This document shows positions 942 through 8,497 of a stretch of 8,497 nt of DNA, piece after piece (the stretch's first letter is position 1; each line of letters begins with the position of its first letter). The translations under genes were made by a program, and so were the position numbers. The notes below the pieces were generated by a model. It was not told where the DNA came from. It worked only from the letters and a program-made list of their open reading frames with translations, and did no database searches. Source of the DNA: Planctomycetota bacterium (GTDB lineage: Bacteria > Planctomycetota > PUPC01 > DSUN01); the NCBI GenBank assembly GCA_016872875.1, contig VGYW01000355.1, positions 1-8,497 of the forward strand, in the 5' to 3' direction.

Positions 942-1469
942 GTGCGAAGGTCGAAGAAGATCAAGCTTGCGGCCCTCGGGGGCCTGCTGGCAGTGGCGGC
1001 GGCCATCGCCATCATCCTTCTCACGCGCCGTTCGGCCAGGGCGCCAGCGATGGACACCACGCCCCCCCAGAAGCCCGTCGCCGCGCCCATTGAGTTCACC
1101 GACGCGGGCGCGGCGGCGCGGATCATCAAGCAACTGGAGTTCGTTGAGCGGAAAGGGCGCGTGCGCGCCGCAGTGTCCCCGGGCAAGGCGCCGCGCTGGT
1201 TCTGCGTGCTGGTGGACGGCGAGCAGCGCTACTACGAGCTGGACCGAGGGGCTAAGGCCGAGGAGTTCGCAGGCCTGGCCGAAGGCGGCTTCCAGCCGCT
1301 CCCCGCGCCCATGGCCCGCACGACGAGCATCTACCGCGCCGTGGCCCGGCGCGCCGTGCCCGACTTCAATGAGGACCGCGGCGACCGCATCCTGGTCCTG
1401 CTCTGTCCCCAGCAGGACTGGCCCAAGCTCGCCCTCCGCTGGCCCCCCGCCCCAAGCCCCGCAAAATGA
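942..1469 (+). CDS. Small membrane-anchored protein of unknown function
   Basis: I do not recognise this 175-residue protein. It starts at GTG 942, with GGAG at 932-935 as ribosome binding site (6-nt spacing), and ends at TGA 1467-1469. The N-terminus is a basic stretch (RRSKKIK), then a single hydrophobic helix at about residues 8-27, then RR. This fits a signal anchor with the rest outside the cytoplasm. A Pro/Ala-rich linker (about 35-48) leads into a soluble domain with RYYELDRGAKAEEF and a C-terminal hydrophobic strand (RILVLLC), ending in a Pro-rich tail. GC-rich third positions and the ribosome binding site favour this frame over the longer opposite-strand and +1 frames. The 27-bp spacing from the Ig-like protein suggests co-transcription. 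Function is unknown. Confidence 0.68.
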   Translation: MRRSKKIKLAALGGLLAVAAAIAIILLTRRSARAPAMDTTPPQKPVAAPIEFTDAGAAARIIKQLEFVERKGRVRAAVSPGKAPRWFCVLVDGEQRYYELDRGAKAEEFAGLAEGGFQPLPAPMARTTSIYRAVARRAVPDFNEDRGDRILVLLCPQQDWPKLALRWPPAPSPAK

Positions 1470-1501
1470 CCCCTGCCTGCGCTGGTCAGAGACCCGGGAA
1501 T

Positions 1502-1533
1502 CTCCAAGTCCGAAGCACGAAATCCGAAACAAG
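1502..1533 (+). repeat. One-armed heptad repeat array (consensus about TCCGAAR)
   Basis: Four 7-bp units follow directly: CTCCAAG, TCCGAAG, CACGAAA, TCCGAAA, then CAAG. Unlike the other arrays in the window, no inverted second arm was found nearby. It lies 33 bp after the stop of the + strand gene. Confidence 0.75.
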
Positions 1534-1551
1534 TCTGGAGGGCTATGCCTG

Positions 1552-1570
1552 CGCCGCCTTTGAGGCGGCG
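1552..1570. terminator. GC-rich hairpin, possible terminator without a T-tract
   Basis: CGCCGCC at 1552-1558 pairs perfectly with GGCGGCG at 1564-1570 around a 5-nt loop (TTTGA). A competing GGGG/CCCC hairpin overlaps at 1570-1582. It lies about 80 bp after the stop of the + strand gene and could act as a terminator, but no run of T follows, so this call is weak. Confidence 0.35.
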
Positions 1571-1647
1571 GGGATACGCCCCCCGCAGCGCCTGACGCCC
1601 CTGGGGGGAGGCGGACATGTAGTGCCTTACGCCGATCCCATGCTCGC

Positions 1648-1670
1648 AAGTCCTTGAAACCAAAGGACTT
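1648..1670. other. Perfect 8-bp hairpin
   Basis: AAGTCCTT (1648-1655) and AAGGACTT (1663-1670) pair around the 7-nt loop GAAACCA. The + strand continues with CTTCTTGCC, a poor substitute for a T-tract. It may be a weak terminator or part of a decayed mobile sequence. Confidence 0.4.
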
Positions 1671-1713
1671 CTTCTTGCCTACTGTCGAAAATCAGTCTGA
1701 CATCAGTGGCGCA

Positions 1714-1803
1714 GTTGACCCACTATGGGAGAAAACGGCCCCGGATGCGTCCGGACCGCCGAAATACCCATAGTATGTCAGGTTCAGGGTTGACCCAGTA
1801 TGG
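1714..1803. repeat. Compound stem-loop with flanking 15-bp direct repeats, possible MITE-like remnant
   Basis: ACTATGGG (1722-1729) pairs with CCCATAGT (1767-1774), CGGC (1736-1739) with GCCG (1758-1761), and CCGGA (1741-1745) with TCCGG (1750-1754), leaving a TGCG tip. A-rich internal loops of similar size (6 and 5 nt) separate the outer stems. GTTGACCCACTATGG at 1714-1728 recurs at 1789-1803 with one mismatch (GTTGACCCAGTATGG). The structure lies just downstream of the second permease gene on the - strand. It could be a terminator, a protein binding site or the end of a small non-autonomous element. The structure is seen; the role is open. Confidence 0.6.
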
Positions 1804-1814
1804 CGGGACCGCCA
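1801..1814 (-). terminator. Small hairpin 32 bp past the second permease stop
   Basis: TGGCG (1801-1805) pairs with CGCCA (1810-1814) around GGAC. It follows the stop of the permease gene on the - strand by 32 bp but lacks a T-tract, so it is only a weak terminator candidate. Confidence 0.25.
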
Positions 1815-1846
1815 GGGATGGGGCAGGGCTGGACGCGGCCGACAGG

Positions 1847-2821
1847 TCACACGCGGCCCCGCAGGCCGGGTCGGGCGAGGAGCTTCTGGAGGAGGATGAA
1901 GGCGAAGAGCAGCAGGTCGATGGCCACGCGGGTCCACCAGGAGTTGAGGGCCTCGAAGGTGATGCCGGTGCGGATGATGCCGAAGATGAGGACGCCGACG
2001 AGGGTTCCAAGGACGTAGCCGACGCCGCCGGTGAGGAGGGTGCCGCCGACGACTACCGCCGCGATGGCGTCGAGCTCCATGCCCATGCACTCGCTGGGGT
2101 CGCCCTTGGAGCCGTAGAGGGTGAAGACGATGCCTGCGAGGGCGGCGCACAGGCCGCTGAGGGCGTAGACGATGAGCTTGGTGCGCCCGACGGGGACGCC
2201 CATGAGGAGGGCCGCCTCCTCGCTCCCGCCGAGGGCGTAGACGTTGCGCCCGAAGACGGTGCAGGTGGAGAGGTAGACGCCCGCGGCCACGACCGCCAGG
2301 AAGACGACTGCGGTGGCCGGCACCCGCGCGCCCGGCAGCGCCAGGCCCCACTGCGTGGCCGCTTGGTAGAAGGCGTTGTCGATCGGCAGCGACCCCATGC
2401 GGACCATGAAGGCGAGGCCGCGGGCGAGGAACATGCCTGCGAGGGTGACGATGAAGGGCGGGAGGCCGAAGAAGCGGATGACGCAGCCCATCGCGAGGCC
2501 GAAGAGCGCGCCGGCCAGGAGGACGGCGAGCATCGCGAGCGGCGGCGGCACGCCCCACTTCTCCATCTGCACGGCGAGGAAGGTGCTCGAGAGCGCGACG
2601 ACGGAGCCGACCGAGAGGTCAATGCCGCCCGCGAGGATGACGAAGGTCATCCCCACCGCGACGATGCCCAGGAACGAGTTGTCGCCGAAGAGGTCCACGA
2701 ACACCTGGAGGGAGAGGAAGTTCTGGTGGTAGTAGCGGACGGCGCCCACGGCGTAGAGGAGGAGGCAGAGGGCAACGGTGGCGAGGAGAGGGATGTGCTT
2801 GCGGGAGAAGGGGAGCTTCAT
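1847..2821 (-). CDS. yjfF: Sugar ABC transporter permease, YjfF-like (BPD_transp_2 family)
   Basis: This 324-residue integral membrane protein belongs to the ribose/xylose/galactofuranose permease family, with about 8-10 membrane segments. Near residues 57-73 it has GMTFVILAGGIDLSVGS, and near 249-268 ELDAIAAVVVGGTLLTGGVG, the conserved cytoplasmic segment thought to contact the ATPase. Both closely match E. coli YjfF as I remember it, as do GMFLARG and the SSWWT-like NSWWT near 294-298. The length is normal. The frame stays open for 20 codons upstream (to 2881), but that part is translated repeat sequence, so I chose the ATG at 2821 (MKLPFSRKH). No strong ribosome binding site precedes it. 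It is the last gene of the - strand series, 151 bp after the YtfT-like gene, with an inverted heptad array between. It would pair with the YtfT-like permease as a channel. The substrate is probably a monosaccharide; galactofuranose is only the family analogy. Confidence 0.93.
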   Translation of the reverse strand: MKLPFSRKHIPLLATVALCLLLYAVGAVRYYHQNFLSLQVFVDLFGDNSFLGIVAVGMTFVILAGGIDLSVGSVVALSSTFLAVQMEKWGVPPPLAMLAVLLAGALFGLAMGCVIRFFGLPPFIVTLAGMFLARGLAFMVRMGSLPIDNAFYQAATQWGLALPGARVPATAVVFLAVVAAGVYLSTCTVFGRNVYALGGSEEAALLMGVPVGRTKLIVYALSGLCAALAGIVFTLYGSKGDPSECMGMELDAIAAVVVGGTLLTGGVGYVLGTLVGVLIFGIIRTGITFEALNSWWTRVAIDLLLFAFILLQKLLARPGLRGRV

Positions 2822-2850
2822 GGACGCAACCAAAGCGGAACGGAACGGCT

Positions 2851-2963
2851 GAATGCTCAATGCCCAATGCTCAATGCTCAATGTCCAAGTAACAACCTGG
2901 CTCCATTGCCTGCTTCTTCACTTGGTCATTGGGAATTGGGTATTGAGGATTGGACATTGGACT
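2851..2963. repeat. Inverted heptad repeat array between the two permease genes
   Basis: The left arm (2851-2890) reads GAATGCT, CAATGCC, CAATGCT, CAATGCT, CAATGTC, CAAGT. The right arm (2920-2963) has five 7-bp units of the opposite orientation: ATTGGGA, ATTGGGT, ATTGAGG, ATTGGAC, ATTGGAC. The arms pair over about 40 positions with roughly three quarters matching, closed by CCAAGT/ACTTGG around a 29-nt loop. It fills most of the 151-bp gap between the ytfT-like stop and the yjfF-like start and would form a long imperfect hairpin in the transcript. Confidence 0.88.
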
Positions 2964-2972
2964 TCTCTTTCC

Positions 2973-4028
2973 TCACGCCGCCCCCTCCCGGCGTCGGGCC
3001 AGGCGCGCGAGCGCGGAGCGGAACTGCTCGGACTGGAGGAGGCAGACGGCGACGACGACGATGGCCTTGACGACCAGGGTGTATTCCGCGGGCACGCCTC
3101 GGGTGAGGATGGTGGTTCGGAGCGTTTGCATGATGAGGGCGCCGAGGATGGAGCCTGGGACGTTGGCCCGCCCGCCGCTGAATGGGGTGCCGCCGATGAC
3201 CACGGCGAGGATGGCGTCGAGTTCCACGTACTCTCCGCAGCGGAGGGGGTCGCCCTGCTTGATGTCGGCGGTGTAGATGAGGCCCGCGATGCCGGCGCAC
3301 AGGCCGCAGAAGGCGTAGACGCTGAGCTTGACGAGCCAGGGGCGGATGCCGGAGAGGCGGCTGGCGCGCTCGTTGTTCCCAACGGCCTCGATGGTCAGGC
3401 CGGCGGTCGTCTTCCGCGTGGCCAGGAGCGTGGCCGCGGCCACGGCGGCCACGACGAACACGGTGAAGGGGAGCCAGAGCCAGCTCCCCGCGGCGATGAA
3501 CTCGAAGTCCGGGCGGCTGAAGCGGATGCGTTGCCCTTCGGTGAGGAGCTGTGCGATGCCGCGGCCTGACACAAGGACGATGAGCGTGGCCACGATGGGC
3601 TGGATGCGCAGGAAGGCCACGAGCGCGCCGTTCCAAAGCCCCGCCGCGACGGCCACGGCGAGGCCGACGGCGCAGGCGGCCGCGGCCGACTGAGGCGGGT
3701 CAGCGGTGAGGAGCAGCGAGGCAGCCGTCCCCGCCATCGCCATCACGGACCCCACCGACAGGTCTATCCCCGCGGTCGCGATCACCAGGGTCATCCCCAC
3801 CGACAGCAGCATCACGATGCTCCCGCGGTGGAGGATGTCAATCATCGAGCCGTAGAGTCGCCACTTGTCTTCGCTGAAGGCGTCGGGCCGCAGCTCGATC
3901 TTCCAGAACCCTTTGGTGAAGAGGATGTTGAAGGCGAGCAGAAGGAGGAGGGCCAGGGCGGGCCAGAAGTTCCGGCTCCGCACCAGCCGGCGCCAGATGC
4001 CCGCGGCACGATTGCTATTGGCGCTCAT
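2973..4028 (-). CDS. ytfT: Sugar ABC transporter permease, YtfT-like (BPD_transp_2 family)
   Basis: This 351-residue integral membrane protein is the likely partner of the YjfF-like permease. The N-terminus is short and basic, followed by a first hydrophobic helix at about 21-38. Then come SMIDILHRGS (61-70), GMTLVIATAGIDLSVGSVMA (78-97), LWNGALVAFLRIQPIVATLI (131-150), ATRKTTAGLTIEAVGNNERA (203-222) and ELDAILAVVIGGTPFSGGR (269-287). These blocks match E. coli YtfT well from memory, and the order ytfT then yjfF is the E. coli order. The ATG at 4028 lies inside the end of the TPR gene (14-bp overlap), with AAGGACGAGAG directly upstream, which points to translational coupling. The frame remains open further upstream, but only through TPR coding sequence. 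The ATPase (ytfR) and the periplasmic binding protein (ytfQ) are absent from the window. Substrate specificity cannot be read from the sequence. Confidence 0.93.
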   Translation of the reverse strand: MSANSNRAAGIWRRLVRSRNFWPALALLLLLAFNILFTKGFWKIELRPDAFSEDKWRLYGSMIDILHRGSIVMLLSVGMTLVIATAGIDLSVGSVMAMAGTAASLLLTADPPQSAAAACAVGLAVAVAAGLWNGALVAFLRIQPIVATLIVLVSGRGIAQLLTEGQRIRFSRPDFEFIAAGSWLWLPFTVFVVAAVAAATLLATRKTTAGLTIEAVGNNERASRLSGIRPWLVKLSVYAFCGLCAGIAGLIYTADIKQGDPLRCGEYVELDAILAVVIGGTPFSGGRANVPGSILGALIMQTLRTTILTRGVPAEYTLVVKAIVVVAVCLLQSEQFRSALARLARRREGAA

Positions 4029-5541
4029 CTCTCGTCCTTGTCCTTCGGCGGCGGGCGCGGCGGAGGGCGTGGGGCGCGAGGAGGAGGGCGAAGGGGAGAA
4101 GGGGGCCGATGAGCTGGTCGGCGGAGACGATGCCCTCGATGGGAATCTCGAGGCCGAGGCAGCCGCAGCCCGGGGGGCGCTTCGCGGCGGCAGAGCGGGC
4201 GGAGGCCAGGCCCCGCTGAGCGGCGCCCATCGCGGGGCGAAGCTCGGCGGCGCGCTGGAGCGCGGCGGCCGCCTCGCTCGGGCGCTTCTCCGCCAGGTGG
4301 ATGCGCCCGAGGTAGAGGTGCGCGTTCGCATGGCCGGGCGCGGCGGCGACGACGCGCTCGAGGATGCCCACGGCCATCTCGCTCTGCCCCTGGCCGTAGA
4401 GGGCCAGGGCGAGGTTGGAGAGGGTCTCAGGGTCGTCGGGCCGGGCGGTGAGCGCGCGGAGGAAGACCGCCTCGGCCTCCTCGTATTCGTGGGGGACGAG
4501 GAGCATGAGGCCGATGAGGTTGAGCGCGCCCACGTGGTCTGGCTCGACCTCGAGCACGCGGTCGGCCAGTTGCCGCGCCGAGCGCAGGTTGTAGCACTCG
4601 AAGTAGGAGTCGGCAAGGGTCATCAGGGTCTCGACGTTTGACGGGTCGGCCTCGGCGGCGCGCTCGAGCTCGTCCACGGCCTCGATGAGATTGCCCACGC
4701 GGTCGAGCAGGCGAGCGAGGCCGACGTGTGGCGTGGGGCTCTTGGCGCCGAGCGCGATGGCGGTCCTGAAGGCTTCTTCGGCCTCCTTCCAGCGTTTCCC
4801 CTGGCTGAGGACCAGGCCGCGGTTGGTGTGGGCCGCCGCGTAGTCGGGCTGAAGCTTGATGGCCTGGTCGAACTCGGCGAGGGCGCGACCGGGCAGGCCG
4901 GCGCGTGCGAGTGCTGCGCCAAGCTGGTTGTGGAGGAGCGCGGAGGCGGGGTCGGCCTTCAGCCCGGCCTCGTAGAGTCGGGCCTGCTCGTCGGGCTGGC
5001 GGGCGGCGTCGCCGCGCCAGAGCGCCTCGGCTGCCGCCTCGTTGCTGGCCGCCGGCGTCGCCAACTGCGCGGAGACGGGAAGCTTCATCGCGCCGGCCAG
5101 GGCGAGGGCGAGAAGCCCGGGAAGCTCGTGGAGCTCGCCCCGGGCGGCGAGGCTCTGGTTGGCGCAGGAGGCCACCTCGACCAGCTCCGCCGCTGCTTCG
5201 CCGCGCCCCGGCGCCTCGACGAGCGCGATGAACTGGCAGCGGAGGAGCCTGCCCGCGGCGGCAATCTCCCTGGCCGAAGCCTTCTCCCCGACGGGCACGA
5301 GCCGTTGGGCGACCGCGGCATTGGCTGGCCAGACTCGCTCGGCCTGGGCCAGTTGCGCCATCGTGGCGCGAGCGACCCCCGCCGCGGCCCAATCGCCCGG
5401 CTGGCGGGCGACGATGGCGATGCGGATGCGCTCCGGGGCGCGCGCCGCGAGGGAGGGGAGGGGGAGGGCCAAGGCCGCAAGCAATGCCGTGAGGCGTGGG
5501 AAGAAGGGACCACAGGGACCACAGGGACCTAAGGGACGCAT
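4015..5541 (-). CDS. TPR-repeat protein with N-terminal signal peptide and C-terminal hydrophobic segment
   Basis: This 508-residue protein starts at ATG 5541. A signal-peptide-like segment (FPRLTALLAALALPLPSLAA) lies at about residues 14-33. Residues 37-160 form an alpha/beta region starting ERIRIAIVAR that loosely resembles TolB/CsgG-like N-domains; this is a weak guess. About residues 165-445 hold seven or eight tetratricopeptide repeats, with typical signatures such as HNQLGAALARAGLPGRALAE and NRGLVLSQGKRWKEAEEAF. A hydrophobic stretch (LIGPLLPFALLLAPHAL, about 477-493) followed by RRARRRR suggests a C-terminal membrane anchor with a cytoplasmic tail. TPRs act as scaffolds for protein contacts; the partner is unknown. 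The gene overlaps the YtfT-like start by 14 bp. An alternative ATG at 5604, with AGGGG 5 nt upstream, would overlap the preceding M16 gene by 20 bp and add 21 residues encoded mostly by repeat DNA. Confidence 0.88.
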   Translation of the reverse strand: MRPLGPCGPCGPFFPRLTALLAALALPLPSLAARAPERIRIAIVARQPGDWAAAGVARATMAQLAQAERVWPANAAVAQRLVPVGEKASAREIAAAGRLLRCQFIALVEAPGRGEAAAELVEVASCANQSLAARGELHELPGLLALALAGAMKLPVSAQLATPAASNEAAAEALWRGDAARQPDEQARLYEAGLKADPASALLHNQLGAALARAGLPGRALAEFDQAIKLQPDYAAAHTNRGLVLSQGKRWKEAEEAFRTAIALGAKSPTPHVGLARLLDRVGNLIEAVDELERAAEADPSNVETLMTLADSYFECYNLRSARQLADRVLEVEPDHVGALNLIGLMLLVPHEYEEAEAVFLRALTARPDDPETLSNLALALYGQGQSEMAVGILERVVAAAPGHANAHLYLGRIHLAEKRPSEAAAALQRAAELRPAMGAAQRGLASARSAAAKRPPGCGCLGLEIPIEGIVSADQLIGPLLPFALLLAPHALRRARRRRTRTRDERQ

Positions 5542-5597
5542 AGCCAAAGAGACCTCTGCTTGTCCCTTAGGTCCCTGTGGTCCCTTAGGTCCCTTGG
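5504..5597. repeat. Inverted 9-bp repeat array with the TPR start codon in its loop
   Basis: The left arm (5504-5537) reads AAGGGAC, CACAGGGAC, CACAGGGAC, CTAAGGGAC. The right arm (5562-5597) reads GTCCCTTAG, GTCCCTGTG, GTCCCTTAG, GTCCCTTGG. They pair over 34 positions with two mismatches, and the innermost 18 bp are perfect. The 24-nt loop (5538-5561) contains the ATG of the TPR gene (5539-5541) and AGAGG (5553-5557) as its possible ribosome binding site. The TAA of the upstream M16 gene (5585-5587) lies within the right arm, and the left arm encodes Gly-Pro-Cys repeats at the TPR N-terminus. Confidence 0.9.
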
Positions 5598-6889
5598 GCG
5601 GCATTGGAGCCCCCTATTGCCGGGCCTGCGATGGCCAGCGAATAGCGGTCGGCCGTCAGGTGGGCCTGGGCCGCCCGCTGGACCGCGTCGCGGGTGACGG
5701 AGCGCACGAGCGCGGGGAAGCGCTGGATGTAGTCGTCGCCCAGGCCGAAGAGCTCGATGTGGTTGAGGGTGCCGGCCAGGCCGTCGTTGGTCTCGAGCTG
5801 AATGGGGAGCGCGCCCACGAGATAGTTCTGACAGTCGGCGAGCTCCTGTTCGGTGACGGGCTCGTCCTGGAGCCGGCGGATTTCGTCGAGGGTGCTGGCG
5901 ACAGCGCGCTCGACGTTCGCGGGGTTGACGCCGGCGCAGACGGACCAGAGGGCGTCGCCGAAGCCCTCGGCGAGGCGCGCGAAGACGTAGTAAGCGAGGC
6001 CCTGGCGGTCGCGGACGTTGTCGCCGAGGCGCCCCATGAGGCCGATGCCGCCGATGATCTCTGTGGCCTGATCGAGGGCGTCGAAGTCGGGGTGGCGACG
6101 CGGGATGGCCTTGAAGCCGAGGGCGATGTCGGCCTGGGTCTTGTCGGCCAGGGGGAAGACGGCGCGCTGGGCCTGGGGCGGGTGCGTGGCGGCCAGCTCG
6201 GGCGTGGGCAAAGGGTCTGAGGGGGCACTTGCGTCGCCCAGCAGCTCGGCCAACTTGTCGAGGGCCTGGCCCGCCGCCACGTCGCCCGCGACGGTGAGGA
6301 TGAGGGCGTCGGGCCGGAAGAGCCGCTCGTGGCAGAGGGCCAGGTCGTCGCGGGCGATGGCCTCCACGCTCGCGCGGTAGCCGTAGCTCGGATGGCGGAA
6401 GGGATGCCCCTCGGGATAGGCCAGGTGGGCCAGCTCGCGCGAGGCCACCATGCGCGTGCTCTGGTCGTACTCGCGGAGCGTGGTGAGGATTTCGCCCCGC
6501 GCCCGCTGTAGCTCGGAATCGGGGAAGCTGGGGCTGCGCAGGATGTCCACCAACACGTCCGCAACGGCGGGCCAGTGGCGGCCGAGGCACTTGACGCGGA
6601 ACGACACGGCGTGTGCGCCCGCGCCCATCGCCAGAGACGCGCCGAGGGAGTCGAGCTCGTCGTAAATCTGGTCATACGAGCGGCGGGTGGTGGCCCTCTG
6701 GGCAACGGCGGCCATGAGGTTTGCCAGCCCCTCGCGGCCGGGTGGGTCGAGCACCGAGCCGCCCACGAGCATGCCGGCGGTCACGACGGTCTCGCTCGCG
6801 TGGTTCTCGACTGCGATGAGTCGCGTCCCGTTGGGCAGCCGGCGGCGGACCACGTCGGGCGCGCGCTGTGTGGTCTCAGGCTTCTCCAT
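5585..6889 (-). CDS. M16 family peptidase-like protein, catalytically inactive partner subunit
   Basis: This 434-residue protein has the two-lobed fold signature of M16B (insulinase/pitrilysin) proteins: it opens with RRRLPNGTRLIAVENH, then GMLVGGSVLDPPGREGLANL. Where an active enzyme has HxxEHM, this one has REGLANLM (about 52-59), so both zinc-ligand histidines and the catalytic glutamate are missing. The second half keeps the other conserved M16 element, MGRLGDNVRDRQGLAYYVF, with the Arg and Tyr (about 293-301) that help bind substrate in heterodimers. This is the usual design of the non-catalytic subunit, and the active subunit is the next gene upstream. I chose ATG 6889 (MEKPETTQ). The frame is open up to 7012 only through repeat-derived sequence. 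AAGGAG lies 13 nt upstream, a rather long spacing. The C-terminal residues AAQGT and the stop are encoded inside the 9-bp repeat array. No signal peptide is visible. Confidence 0.92.
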   Translation of the reverse strand: MEKPETTQRAPDVVRRRLPNGTRLIAVENHASETVVTAGMLVGGSVLDPPGREGLANLMAAVAQRATTRRSYDQIYDELDSLGASLAMGAGAHAVSFRVKCLGRHWPAVADVLVDILRSPSFPDSELQRARGEILTTLREYDQSTRMVASRELAHLAYPEGHPFRHPSYGYRASVEAIARDDLALCHERLFRPDALILTVAGDVAAGQALDKLAELLGDASAPSDPLPTPELAATHPPQAQRAVFPLADKTQADIALGFKAIPRRHPDFDALDQATEIIGGIGLMGRLGDNVRDRQGLAYYVFARLAEGFGDALWSVCAGVNPANVERAVASTLDEIRRLQDEPVTEQELADCQNYLVGALPIQLETNDGLAGTLNHIELFGLGDDYIQRFPALVRSVTRDAVQRAAQAHLTADRYSLAIAGPAIGGSNAAQGT

Positions 6890-6925
6890 CGTGATTCGTG
6901 CGCTCCTTGCGGACGTGTCAGCGGA

Positions 6926-7018
6926 GGATGAATGGATGGGTGGATGGGTGGATGAATGCCAGAGAAGGCGCCTCCCCGATTCCTTCATCCATCCATTCAT
7001 CCATTCATCCAATCATCC
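6926..7018. repeat. Inverted 8-bp repeat array between the two M16 genes
   Basis: The left arm has four 8-bp units: GGATGAAT, GGATGGGT, GGATGGGT, GGATGAAT (6926-6957). The right arm (6984-7018) has ATTCATCC-type units in the opposite orientation: TTCATCC, ATCC, ATTCATCC, ATTCATCC, AATCATCC. The arms pair at about 27 of 33 positions around a loop of about 25 nt containing GGCGCC. The array occupies the middle of the 181-bp gap between the active and inactive M16 genes. No gene is visible in this gap. Confidence 0.88.
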
Positions 7019-7070
7019 CGTCTGGTTGCGGCCTACAGCCGCCCCGAGTCTCTCTGTCCGCGATCGCTCC

Positions 7071-8351
7071 TCAGGCGCGCGTGGGGATGAAGCGGCCGAT
7101 GGTGCGGCTCGATTCGCGGAAGTAGCGGGCGGCGACGCGCTGGACGTCGGCCGCGGTCACGGCGTCAATCCTGTCGAGGAACGTCAGAACGCGGCGGTAG
7201 CCCTCGACGGCCTCCGCGGAGCCGACGACGCCGCCGATGCCGGTCACGCTGTCCCAGGCATAGGCGAAGGAGGCGTGGATCTGGGTGCGGGCCTTCTCCA
7301 TCTCCGCACCGGTCGGCGGCTGGGCGGCGAGGCGTTCGAGCTCGGCCAGGAGCGCGGCCTCCACCCGGTCCGGGTCCACCCCCTCGCGCACGGTGGCGCC
7401 CGCGTGGAAGAGGTGTGGGTCGCGCCCCGCGCTGGGGTAGGCATAGGCGTTCGAGGCCAGCTCGGCGCGGACGAGTGCGACGTGAAGGCGGGATGTCCGC
7501 CCCCCGACGCCGCCCCCCATGCCCATGCCGCTGGCCCCGCTGAGGACCGTGGCGGCCACCATCAGGGGGTAGAGGTCGTCGTGGGTGATTGGCGGGACGC
7601 GCCAGGCGGCATGGACGAGAGCCGCGCCGCCGGCCTGGCGAAGCGTCACGCGGCGCTCGGCGCGCTGCTCGGGCTCGCGGACCGCGACCGGCGGCGGCTC
7701 AGGGCCGCGGGGGATGTCGCCGTAGAGCTCGCGGACGCGGTCGAGCAGCCGCCCCCGCTCGAAGTCCCCGGCAACCACCAGGAAGGCGTTGTTCGGGGCG
7801 TAGAAGGCCCTGTAGTAGCCGTAGAGGTCCTCGCGGGTCATGGCCCGCAGGTCGTCCTTGTAGCCGATGACGCTCCAGCGATAGGGGTGCTCGCGGAAGG
7901 CGGAGGCGCTGATCTCCTCGCCGAGGAGGTAGCCGGGATGGTTCTCGGCGCCCTCGCGCTCGGAGATGATGACGGTGCGTTCGGACTCCACCTCCGCGGG
8001 GTCGAAGACGGAGTTGGCCATGCGGTCGGCCTCGATCCGCAGGCCCAGGTCCATCGCCTCGGCGGGCAGGGTCTCGAAGTAGGCCGTGAAGTCGTAATAG
8101 GTGAAGCCGTTATTCGTCCCGCCGTGCTTAGCCACCTGCTTGAAAATCTCGCCCTTGCCGAACTCGCGTCCCCCCTTGAAGAGCATGTGCTCCACCCAGT
8201 GCGAGGCGCCCGTGATGCCGAGCCGCTCGTTGCGCGAGCCGACGCGATACCAGGCCCAGACAGTGACGACGGGCGCGGTGTGGCGCTCGATGGTGAGGAC
8301 CTTCAGCCCGTTGTCGAGCATGGCCTCCTCGATGCCGAGGCTTACGTTCAT
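7071..8351 (-). CDS. M16 family zinc metallopeptidase, active subunit
   Basis: This 426-residue M16B-type peptidase carries the inverted zinc motif HWVEH (His51, Glu54, His55) in GASHWVEHMLFKGG. Glu131 in ERTVIISERE is the expected third zinc ligand, 75 residues after His55, as in mitochondrial processing peptidase beta. The opening (EAMLDNGLKVLTIERHTAPVVTVWAWYRVGSRNE) is typical of the family. The C-terminal half has GGRTSRLHVALVRAELASNA, the degenerate second-domain counterpart, preceded by an unusual glycine/methionine-rich stretch (SGASGMGMGGGVGG, about 271-284) where the family has a short LGGG-type turn. The start ATG 8351 lies 9 bp after the stop of the upstream gene, with GGCAGG as a weak ribosome binding site, so the two are almost certainly co-transcribed. 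No signal peptide is seen, so it may act in the cytoplasm. It probably degrades peptides or processes proteins as a heterodimer with the downstream inactive M16 protein. The substrate is unknown. Confidence 0.95.
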   Translation of the reverse strand: MNVSLGIEEAMLDNGLKVLTIERHTAPVVTVWAWYRVGSRNERLGITGASHWVEHMLFKGGREFGKGEIFKQVAKHGGTNNGFTYYDFTAYFETLPAEAMDLGLRIEADRMANSVFDPAEVESERTVIISEREGAENHPGYLLGEEISASAFREHPYRWSVIGYKDDLRAMTREDLYGYYRAFYAPNNAFLVVAGDFERGRLLDRVRELYGDIPRGPEPPPVAVREPEQRAERRVTLRQAGGAALVHAAWRVPPITHDDLYPLMVAATVLSGASGMGMGGGVGGRTSRLHVALVRAELASNAYAYPSAGRDPHLFHAGATVREGVDPDRVEAALLAELERLAAQPPTGAEMEKARTQIHASFAYAWDSVTGIGGVVGSAEAVEGYRRVLTFLDRIDAVTAADVQRVAARYFRESSRTIGRFIPTRA

Positions 8352-8360
8352 CAGCCTGCC

Positions 8361-8497
8361 CTACTCCTTCACGCCATCGGACCCCTTGCCCTTCGGGCGA
8401 GTGCCCTGGATGAGGAACTTCTGGAGGTCAGGGTGCCACTCGAGCTTGGAGCGGTTCTGGGCGAACCAGTCCTGGTGCTTCTTGATTGCGGCCTCGC
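8361..8497 (-). CDS. C-terminal end of an unrecognised protein (N-terminus outside the window)
   Basis: The last 44 residues or so of a protein are readable, beginning EAAIKKHQDWFAQNRSKLEW and ending GKGSDGVKE before the TAG (8361-8363). The frame is open to the window edge. The pattern of a W-F-x-x-N-R-x-K-L-x-W segment close to the C-terminus recalls tails of HEAT-repeat proteins in Planctomycetota, but this is a weak memory-based impression. The stop is 9 bp upstream of the active M16 gene, so it is in the same transcript. Confidence 0.72.
   Translation of the reverse strand, partial: EAAIKKHQDWFAQNRSKLEWHPDLQKFLIQGTRPKGKGSDGVKE

Follow-up and report, generated by a model that had tools for sequence, protein, structure and literature searches.

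Introduction

Filamentous cyanobacteria carry short tandemly repeated sequences, known as STRR. Arrays in which such short units face each other in inverted orientation have been described mostly for a few cultured bacteria, as heptamer families without an established origin or function. The described examples are the GGGAATC/GGGANTN arrays of Xanthomonas and the GGGGA(C/T)T arrays of Nostoc; in the available text of that report, four units are the commonest size of the Xanthomonas arrays, 89-93% of them are intergenic and their function is given as unknown, while two species hold 70 and 75 inverted convergent pairs whose neighbouring genes are mostly co-directional and in few cases divergent (PMC4692102). 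Here we describe comparable arrays in an 8,497-nt stretch of DNA from a Planctomycetota bacterium (contig VGYW01000355.1 of assembly GCA_016872875.1; the whole stretch is referred to as the window), a planctomycete-like fragment whose minus-strand genes, two for ABC transporter permeases, one for a TPR protein and two for M16 peptidases, have opposed arms of 7-, 8- or 9-bp units at three of their junctions.

With about even confidence, we read each paired array as a member of a lineage-specific family of dispersed hairpins. In such an element, about four short units would form the 5' arm, followed by a loop and by a 3' arm in which the unit is inverted. The families would multiply within one lineage and come to rest at the ends of genes, places that tolerate non-coding inserts. 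An element that lies within an operon would enter the mRNA as a long hairpin, often interrupted, and hold apart cistrons that in a relative overlap. We infer that the 8-bp family spread by copying, and the same status applies to any effect on expression. If families with contrasting polarity and loops do coexist in one genome, copying, slippage and template switching could be separated by comparing them.

Results

The units of the window recur as families in its closest relative. A scan of a genome collection returned 31 loci, of which the closest (L001) encodes an M16 protein 78% identical to that of the window, the next one being 45% identical. L001 belongs to a Planctomycetota metagenome bin, G001, a draft genome of 8.9 Mb in many contigs; the first 20 kb of each of the longest contigs served as the sample. 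Two overlapping samples were used, one of 1.2 Mb (array rows, partners and clusters) and one of 1.59 Mb (exact-core pairs); statistics on spacers, loop tags and arm matches draw on these samples and on 20 short stretches chosen for 9-bp matches. The first-pass annotation had expected genome-wide counts above those of shuffled sequence, and this is what the relative displays: 92 (period 7), 27 (period 8) and 20 (period 9) array rows in 1.2 Mb, and none at any period from 5 to 15 in one block-wise dinucleotide shuffle of the sample. The expected pairing was also found, with an inverted partner within 100 nt for 58 of the 133 arms that had enough flank, a same-orientation partner for 11, and 8 inverted partners when the flanks were taken from other families.

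Searching for runs of exact cores yielded 54 paired elements of seven core types, namely GGATG_8 (24 pairs), CGAGC_7 (7), AGGGAC_9, AATCCG_7 and AATCGG_7 (6 each), CGTGAC_7 (4) and CAATG_7 (1); an eighth core, GGCAGA_7, gave no pair in the 1.59 Mb. The three units of the window, CAATGNN (7 bp), GGATGNNT (8 bp) and AGGGACNNN (9 bp), had been described as unrelated to one another, which is true within the window, yet each of them is a recurrent family with a fixed core in G001. A unit is made of a constant core of about 4-6 bases and a variable spacer, which in 8-bp units nearly always reads purine, any base (rarely C), T. Arms have a median length of 33, 30.5 and 34 nt and a median of 4.7, 3.8 and 3.8 units for periods 7, 8 and 9, respectively (first 1.2 Mb of G001). 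As had been proposed, the pairs are intergenic: 52 of 54 lie outside genes, compared to 27 of 50 single arms (Fisher P = 3e-7). Large genes of more than 7 kb, as called by a home-made gene caller, hold several in-frame 7-bp arrays (L080, about 9228-13352; L072, 14676-14960).

The 8-bp family has a single polarity. The GGATG arm is the 5' arm in 24:0 sampled pairs and in 144:0 overlapping matches across G001. Moreover, 16 of 23 of its loops carry the motif TGYCnGR or its mirror (shuffles: mean 1, maximum 4), a motif picked post hoc, and so do 10 of 15 further 8-bp elements among the matches listed outside the fetched stretches (shuffles: mean 0.6, maximum 6), for which the motif had been fixed beforehand, although these loops, too, had been seen by the time of the test. 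Given this fixed polarity and the motif shared by most loops, the 8-bp elements look copied, and the family seems to behave as a dispersed hairpin. The 8-bp loop of the window carries TGCCAGA, the motif common to most of the G001 loops, and the start of its 7-bp loop resembles that of a G001 element (Table 1); therefore, at least two of the window elements look like members of G001 families. Across 63 loops of 12-90 nt, collected by nine core searches with duplicates dropped, a purine tag occurs in the 5' half of 27 and a pyrimidine tag in the 3' half of 24, both tags being picked post hoc (shuffles: mean about 3, maximum 9 and 10, respectively).

Overlapping matches to three successive GGATGNNT units numbered 543 in G001 (252 + 291), 24 in G002 and 2 in G041, with none in the other 291 of the 294 genomes of the phylum (G004 among them) and none in five genomes of other lineages. 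The backwards control pattern had no match in G001 and matched only in G019, G168, G258 and G232. Three successive AGGGACNNN units were found 136 times in G001 (67 + 69), once in G018 and in none of the other 38 of 40 relatives. The corresponding CAATGNN pattern was present in 5 of 59 genomes, its backwards control in 4; G054 has 26 matches, several of them visibly paired. Of 20 stretches of G054, 11 were chosen for their CAATG matches, and the nine blind ones (180 kb) gave four arms and no pair. Outside the Planctomycetota, 29 loci (426 kb) held 24 arms and two inverted pairs, one of 7 bp and one of 8 bp. The architecture thus extends beyond this lineage, but the 8- and 9-bp families seem to be of narrow range. 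G019, in which the backwards control patterns match often (71 and 56), probably has abundant tandem families of its own (GTAACNN-like and GTAGGTNN-like). G002 was tried as a source of empty sites and set aside, as 227 kb of it, sampled without its four contigs with GGATG matches, gave three arms of period 7-9 and few clear orthologues. Inverted 6-bp arrays were seen in G002 (L157).

Two orthologous junctions in L001 have no spacer at all. There, the first M16 gene shares 8 nt with the second, which in turn shares 1 nt with the TPR gene; the same junctions of the window have 181 nt and about 43 nt between the open reading frames (ORFs). Overlapping genes in L001 against spaced ones in the window suggest that the arrays were gained in the window lineage rather than lost in L001. 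Just past the TPR gene of L001, at about 8875-8980, lies another inverted array, of CGTCCT-type units, which the period filter missed.

In the window itself, the first-pass annotation had reported four arrays. For the 7-, 8- and 9-bp ones, opposed arms exceed chance: the best autocorrelation in 24 positions is 22 and 19, 22 and 20, and 22 and 20 for the two arms, respectively, against best shuffled values of 18, 18 and 19 anywhere in the window (100 dinucleotide shuffles). The 9-bp arms are 94% complementary over 34 nt and the 8-bp arms 84% over 32 nt. On the transcribed strand the three arrays are predicted to fold as hairpins, with z = -4.6 (7 bp), -5.0 (8 bp) and -10.6 (9 bp), and 0 of 200 shuffles were as stable in each case. 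Loops of 24-29 nt had been claimed, which is approximate, as they measure about 33 (7 bp), 21 (8 bp) and 24 nt (9 bp). The two tight junctions, a 9-nt gap and a 14-nt overlap, were as described. No promoters were found at the paired arrays.

The fourth array did not hold. At least six other places of the window score higher for period 7 than the one claimed (about 1505-1532), and 190 of 200 shuffles were as stable as the fold of the surrounding sequence. It contains a 22-mer that, with one mismatch allowed, recurs in three of 59 relatives: at four places in G001 (three exact), three in G053 (one exact) and one in G047. Among the loci with this 22-mer (window 1509-1532; loci L236-L243), L242 shows an inverted partner after it. 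The 22-mer may be an arm of another hairpin family.

Table 1. Coordinates of the arrays and genes of the window
Feature	Position	Strand	Remarks
7-bp array, left arm (CAATGNN)	2848..2888	.	Between the two ABC permease genes
7-bp element, loop	2889..2921	.	Minus-strand loop region reads CCAAGTGAAGAAGC..., like the G001 CAATG element L077 (CCAAGTAAGAAGC...)
7-bp array, right arm (CATTG orientation)	about 2922..2959	.	
9-bp array, left arm (AGGGACNNN)	5504..5537	.	Probably encodes RPLGPCGPCGP near the TPR N-terminus
9-bp element, loop	5538..5561	.	Contains the likely TPR start codon (5539-5541) and GTCTCTTTGG (minus strand)
9-bp array, right arm	5562..5595	.	The second M16 gene ends in it (TAA, 5585-5587)
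8-bp array, left arm (GGATGRNT)	about 6925..6957	.	Between the two M16 genes
8-bp element, loop	6958..6978	.	TGCCAGA at left border (6957-6963)
8-bp array, right arm (CATCC orientation)	about 6979..7018	.	
Claimed fourth array (TCCGAAR)	1505..1532	.	Not significant; contains a dispersed 22-mer
ABC transporter permease (BPD_transp_2)	1847..2821	-	
ABC transporter permease (BPD_transp_2)	2973..4028	-	
TPR protein	4015..5541	-	Start most likely ATG 5541
Second M16 peptidase-like gene	5585..6889	-	
First M16 peptidase gene	7071..8351	-	

The 9-bp array had been placed in a long gap. Instead, it overlaps both neighbouring ORFs. The second M16 ORF extends 11 residues beyond its AGP motif and ends at the TAA in the right arm, whereas 20 of its next 22 homologues (P0002-P0023) end at most 7 residues after the motif. 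On the other side, the likely TPR start codon stands at the loop edge, so that the left arm is probably coding, for the residues RPLGPCGPCGP. The same residues are present in a TPR homologue that is 98% identical (P0121) and in none of the next 18 (49-70% identical). One hairpin array thus supplies the stop codon of an operon gene and probably also the region where the following gene starts; in the relative, these two genes overlap by 1 nt. A TPR start at 5472, proposed by the home-made gene caller, had no support from homologues, and ATG 5541 was favoured. The TPR homologue P0124 begins with a different tripeptide repeat, MGPMGPMRP, which would also have a 9-nt period; it looks as if another array of this period occupied the same junction.

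As to the rest of the window, the named closest homologues of the second M16 gene are from Planctomycetota, Planctomycetes or Candidatus Brocadiia. Rfam 15 gave no match in the window at gathering score. A plasmid collection returned 554 matching records; among the matches listed, no place covers more than 24% of the query, and the annotated features, where present, are permease genes. Downstream of the last permease gene, a 15-nt direct repeat (1714-1728 and 1789-1803) has copies that are 93% identical and 75 nt apart.

Discussion

Our preferred reading, that the paired arrays belong to dispersed hairpin families, has several findings against it. The 9-bp family occurs in both polarities (15 versus 8 distinct places), and its loops are unrelated and hold few tags (3 and 2 of 15). 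Adjacent spacers of the AATC-type 7-bp arrays are identical in 69 of 114 cases against 20.4 expected, as slippage would give, an excess that comes partly from lumping several subfamilies. Single arms lie inside genes in 23 of 50 cases. The 17-kb contig with the orthologous operon (L001) has no 7-9-bp array in the period filter, and treating it and the array-rich contigs as one organism rests on binning. Gain of the arrays is judged against this one relative, and loss may apply instead. Additionally, the 9-bp loop of the window seems to hold ancestral sequence, which would argue for arms made in place, and no mobilising gene was found, the six fetched tyrosine-transposase loci of G001 being without adjoining arrays. 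Among the generalizations that we had considered, a polarity fixed in every family was dropped (the AATCCG core, too, is at 4:2, or 5:0 under other search settings), and a loop conserved in all families was weakened by the 9-bp loops.

Several of these points would suit growth in place, a possible explanation to which we give limited credence. A chance copy of a unit would expand by slippage, and the second arm would come from template switching or from separate seeding; the elements would then be mutational products of a prone genome, retained only where they are harmless. At the 9-bp junction, L001 reads ...GTCTCTTTGGTCCCTTCTTCCC; the window retains GTCTCTTTGG in its loop, and TCCCTTCTTCCC of L001 recurs at the end of the coding-strand 3' arm of the window. 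This hints that the arms grew around existing sequence, as if from a unit that was already present. The unrelated 9-bp loops, the internal homogeneity of the AATC-type arrays and the short-period arms at non-planctomycete loci are consistent with the same process.

Growth in place is harder to reconcile with the spacers. Identical adjacent spacers are rarer than expected in the 8-bp (14 of 94 versus 20.8) and 9-bp (5 of 85 versus 10.4) families, the opposite of what fresh slippage would leave; for CGTGAC they are also fewer (6 of 16 versus 9.3) and for CGAGC as expected (5 of 35 versus 5.4). When the arms of 18 8-bp elements are compared in a loop-anchored register, their spacers match in 3 of 49 positions, versus 9.0 with swapped partners (P = 0.01, a value that does not come from independent cases since the elements share ancestry), and neighbouring registers have no effect (7 of 35 and 11 of 35). 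The arms of the 8-bp family are therefore not plain inverted copies of each other, an idea that we dropped for this family, and true partners pair worse than swapped ones. In two near-identical AATCCGT elements (L091 and L094), by contrast, the arms agree almost throughout. Given that the 8-bp elements seem related by descent, the mismatch is only suggestive of selection against perfect palindromes. The 11 elements of the 9-bp family lack the effect, and true partners among them have a slight pairing advantage over swapped ones (P = 0.17 and 0.055). Finally, the one motif found in most 8-bp loops across sites is not what independent growth at each site would leave.

Selection for intercistronic mRNA hairpins that tune the members of an operon, through stability, RNase III processing or translational uncoupling, appears unlikely. 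Three strong hairpins are predicted in the window, and placement between co-directional genes, which the first-pass annotation expected, is indeed common: 46 of the 52 junction pairs of G001 are co-directional, 3 convergent and 3 divergent, against 723, 115 and 116 of 954 background junctions. With single arms included, 105 arm clusters in 1.2 Mb comprise 64 at co-directional, 2 at convergent and 5 at divergent junctions (64 of 71 co-directional), 30 in genes and 4 at contig ends; the co-directional ones have median distances of 9.5 nt from the stop of the preceding gene and 37 nt from the start of the following one. Nonetheless, co-directional pairs are in weak excess (P about 0.03-0.04), and 5 of the 17 9-bp elements with readable context are convergent, the other 12 being co-directional (an eighteenth had no readable context, and several were fetched for their match). 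All these classes carry error from the home-made caller, which placed one 9-bp element (L069) once inside a short gene and once between co-directional genes 754-988 nt away. With so weak an excess and these convergent cases, selection for operon tuning, as proposed by the first-pass annotation, is not demonstrated. The two orthologous L001 junctions do without arrays, the 8-bp partners pair worse than swapped ones, and the slightly better pairing of 9-bp partners is not clear support. A role in tuning operons is possible; a mild uncoupling of adjacent cistrons, as a side effect, seems likelier than a selected regulatory function.

We regard it as very improbable that these are REPIN-type elements moved by REP-associated tyrosine transposases. 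Inverted doublets that form hairpins do resemble REPINs as the available text of their description presents them (PMC3116915), and matches to Y1_Tnp, the IS200/REP-type transposase, number 19 in G001 and 16 in G054. A 6-9-bp array was present in the flank of 3 of 14 Y1_Tnp loci of other genomes (L130, L136 and L141), two of them among the six fetched from G054 (a 7-bp array in L136 and a 6-bp array in L130). However, the six G001 loci fetched, of 19, have no array in their flanks of up to 1.5 kb a side, and the tags of such elements are scarce, GTAG/CTAC being found in 1 of 23 8-bp and 0 of 15 9-bp elements, and CGTC/GACG in 3 of 23 and 1 of 15. In the window, CGTC adjoins the right end of the 8-bp element and no other array end. 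With no consistent tag and no arrays adjoining these six transposase genes, the link was rejected.

Intrinsic transcription terminators, which are also hairpins at gene ends, can be dismissed almost entirely, as no GC stem with a T run occurs at the three paired arrays, the sole terminator site in 1400-8497 is at 1755-1740, and pairs are not enriched at convergent ends (3 of 52 versus 115 of 954), although the 9-bp family may be.

Returning to dispersed hairpin families, the single process that the first-pass annotation put forward for all arrays is not shown: the 8-bp family looks copied, whereas the 9-bp family and the homogeneous AATC-type arrays appear to fit growth in place better. The rarity of pairs in coding sequence would account for both kinds coming to lie at gene ends. 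More tentatively, and with rather low confidence, several self-dispersing miniature hairpin families could coexist in one planctomycete lineage, defined not by the sequence of their arms but by the short core of the unit, a set polarity and an apical motif common to the members. Placement of units in one polarity on either side of a break could build them; perhaps a polymerase or nuclease activity adds the unit to both sides, in a telomere-like manner.

How do these arrays relate to known systems? Among the matches listed in the open-licence literature there was no report of these families in planctomycetes, and the first-pass annotation had held that no named family fits. This was too strong, as the Xanthomonas GGGANTN arrays are in print with the same architecture (PMC4692102). 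In what follows, published systems are compared as the available text of each report presents them. REP, REPIN and BIME elements are likewise dispersed, extragenic, hairpin-forming inverted doublets with several families per genome (PMC3116915, PMC3733652), and the 8-bp family, with its fixed core, polarity and motif in most loops, shares the dispersed, conserved doublet with them. Their arms, unlike those described here, are not tandem arrays of 7-9-bp units; moreover, no consistent GTAG/CGTC tag stands beside the stem here, and a transposase flanked by repeats is missing at the six of 19 G001 loci looked at. The TAACTGA direct repeats of Beggiatoaceae and others are also intergenic heptamer arrays, found in several phyla (PMC4679880). 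Borg genomes have many genome-specific arrays, in and between genes, which differ in being head-to-tail, perfect and A-rich, with units of 18-21 nt in the examples given and no inverted pairs (PMC9879509). The LTRR and intergenic repeats of filamentous cyanobacteria are short, lie between operon genes and in some cases are predicted to form hairpins, which differ from ours in being weak, at -1.3 to -10.5 kcal/mol (PMC2408588).

The arrays of Xanthomonas and Nostoc (PMC4692102) come closest. They share with ours short units in which some positions are conserved and others vary, arms of about four units, an intergenic location (52 of 54 pairs here), inverted pairing and mostly co-directional neighbours (46 of 52). 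Unlike them, none of the window units is GGGANTN or GGGGAYT, a GGG tract occurs in the 9-bp unit only, and one motif recurs among the loops of the 8-bp family. That report deals with a single G-rich 7-bp motif in each organism and with its formation of quadruplexes, while here several core types, with units of 7, 8 and 9 bp, coexist in one genome. Given these different units, the arrays are not of the same family, yet they are of the same kind: the G001-type arrays are a richer variant of the puzzle posed by Xanthomonas rather than a wholly new one.

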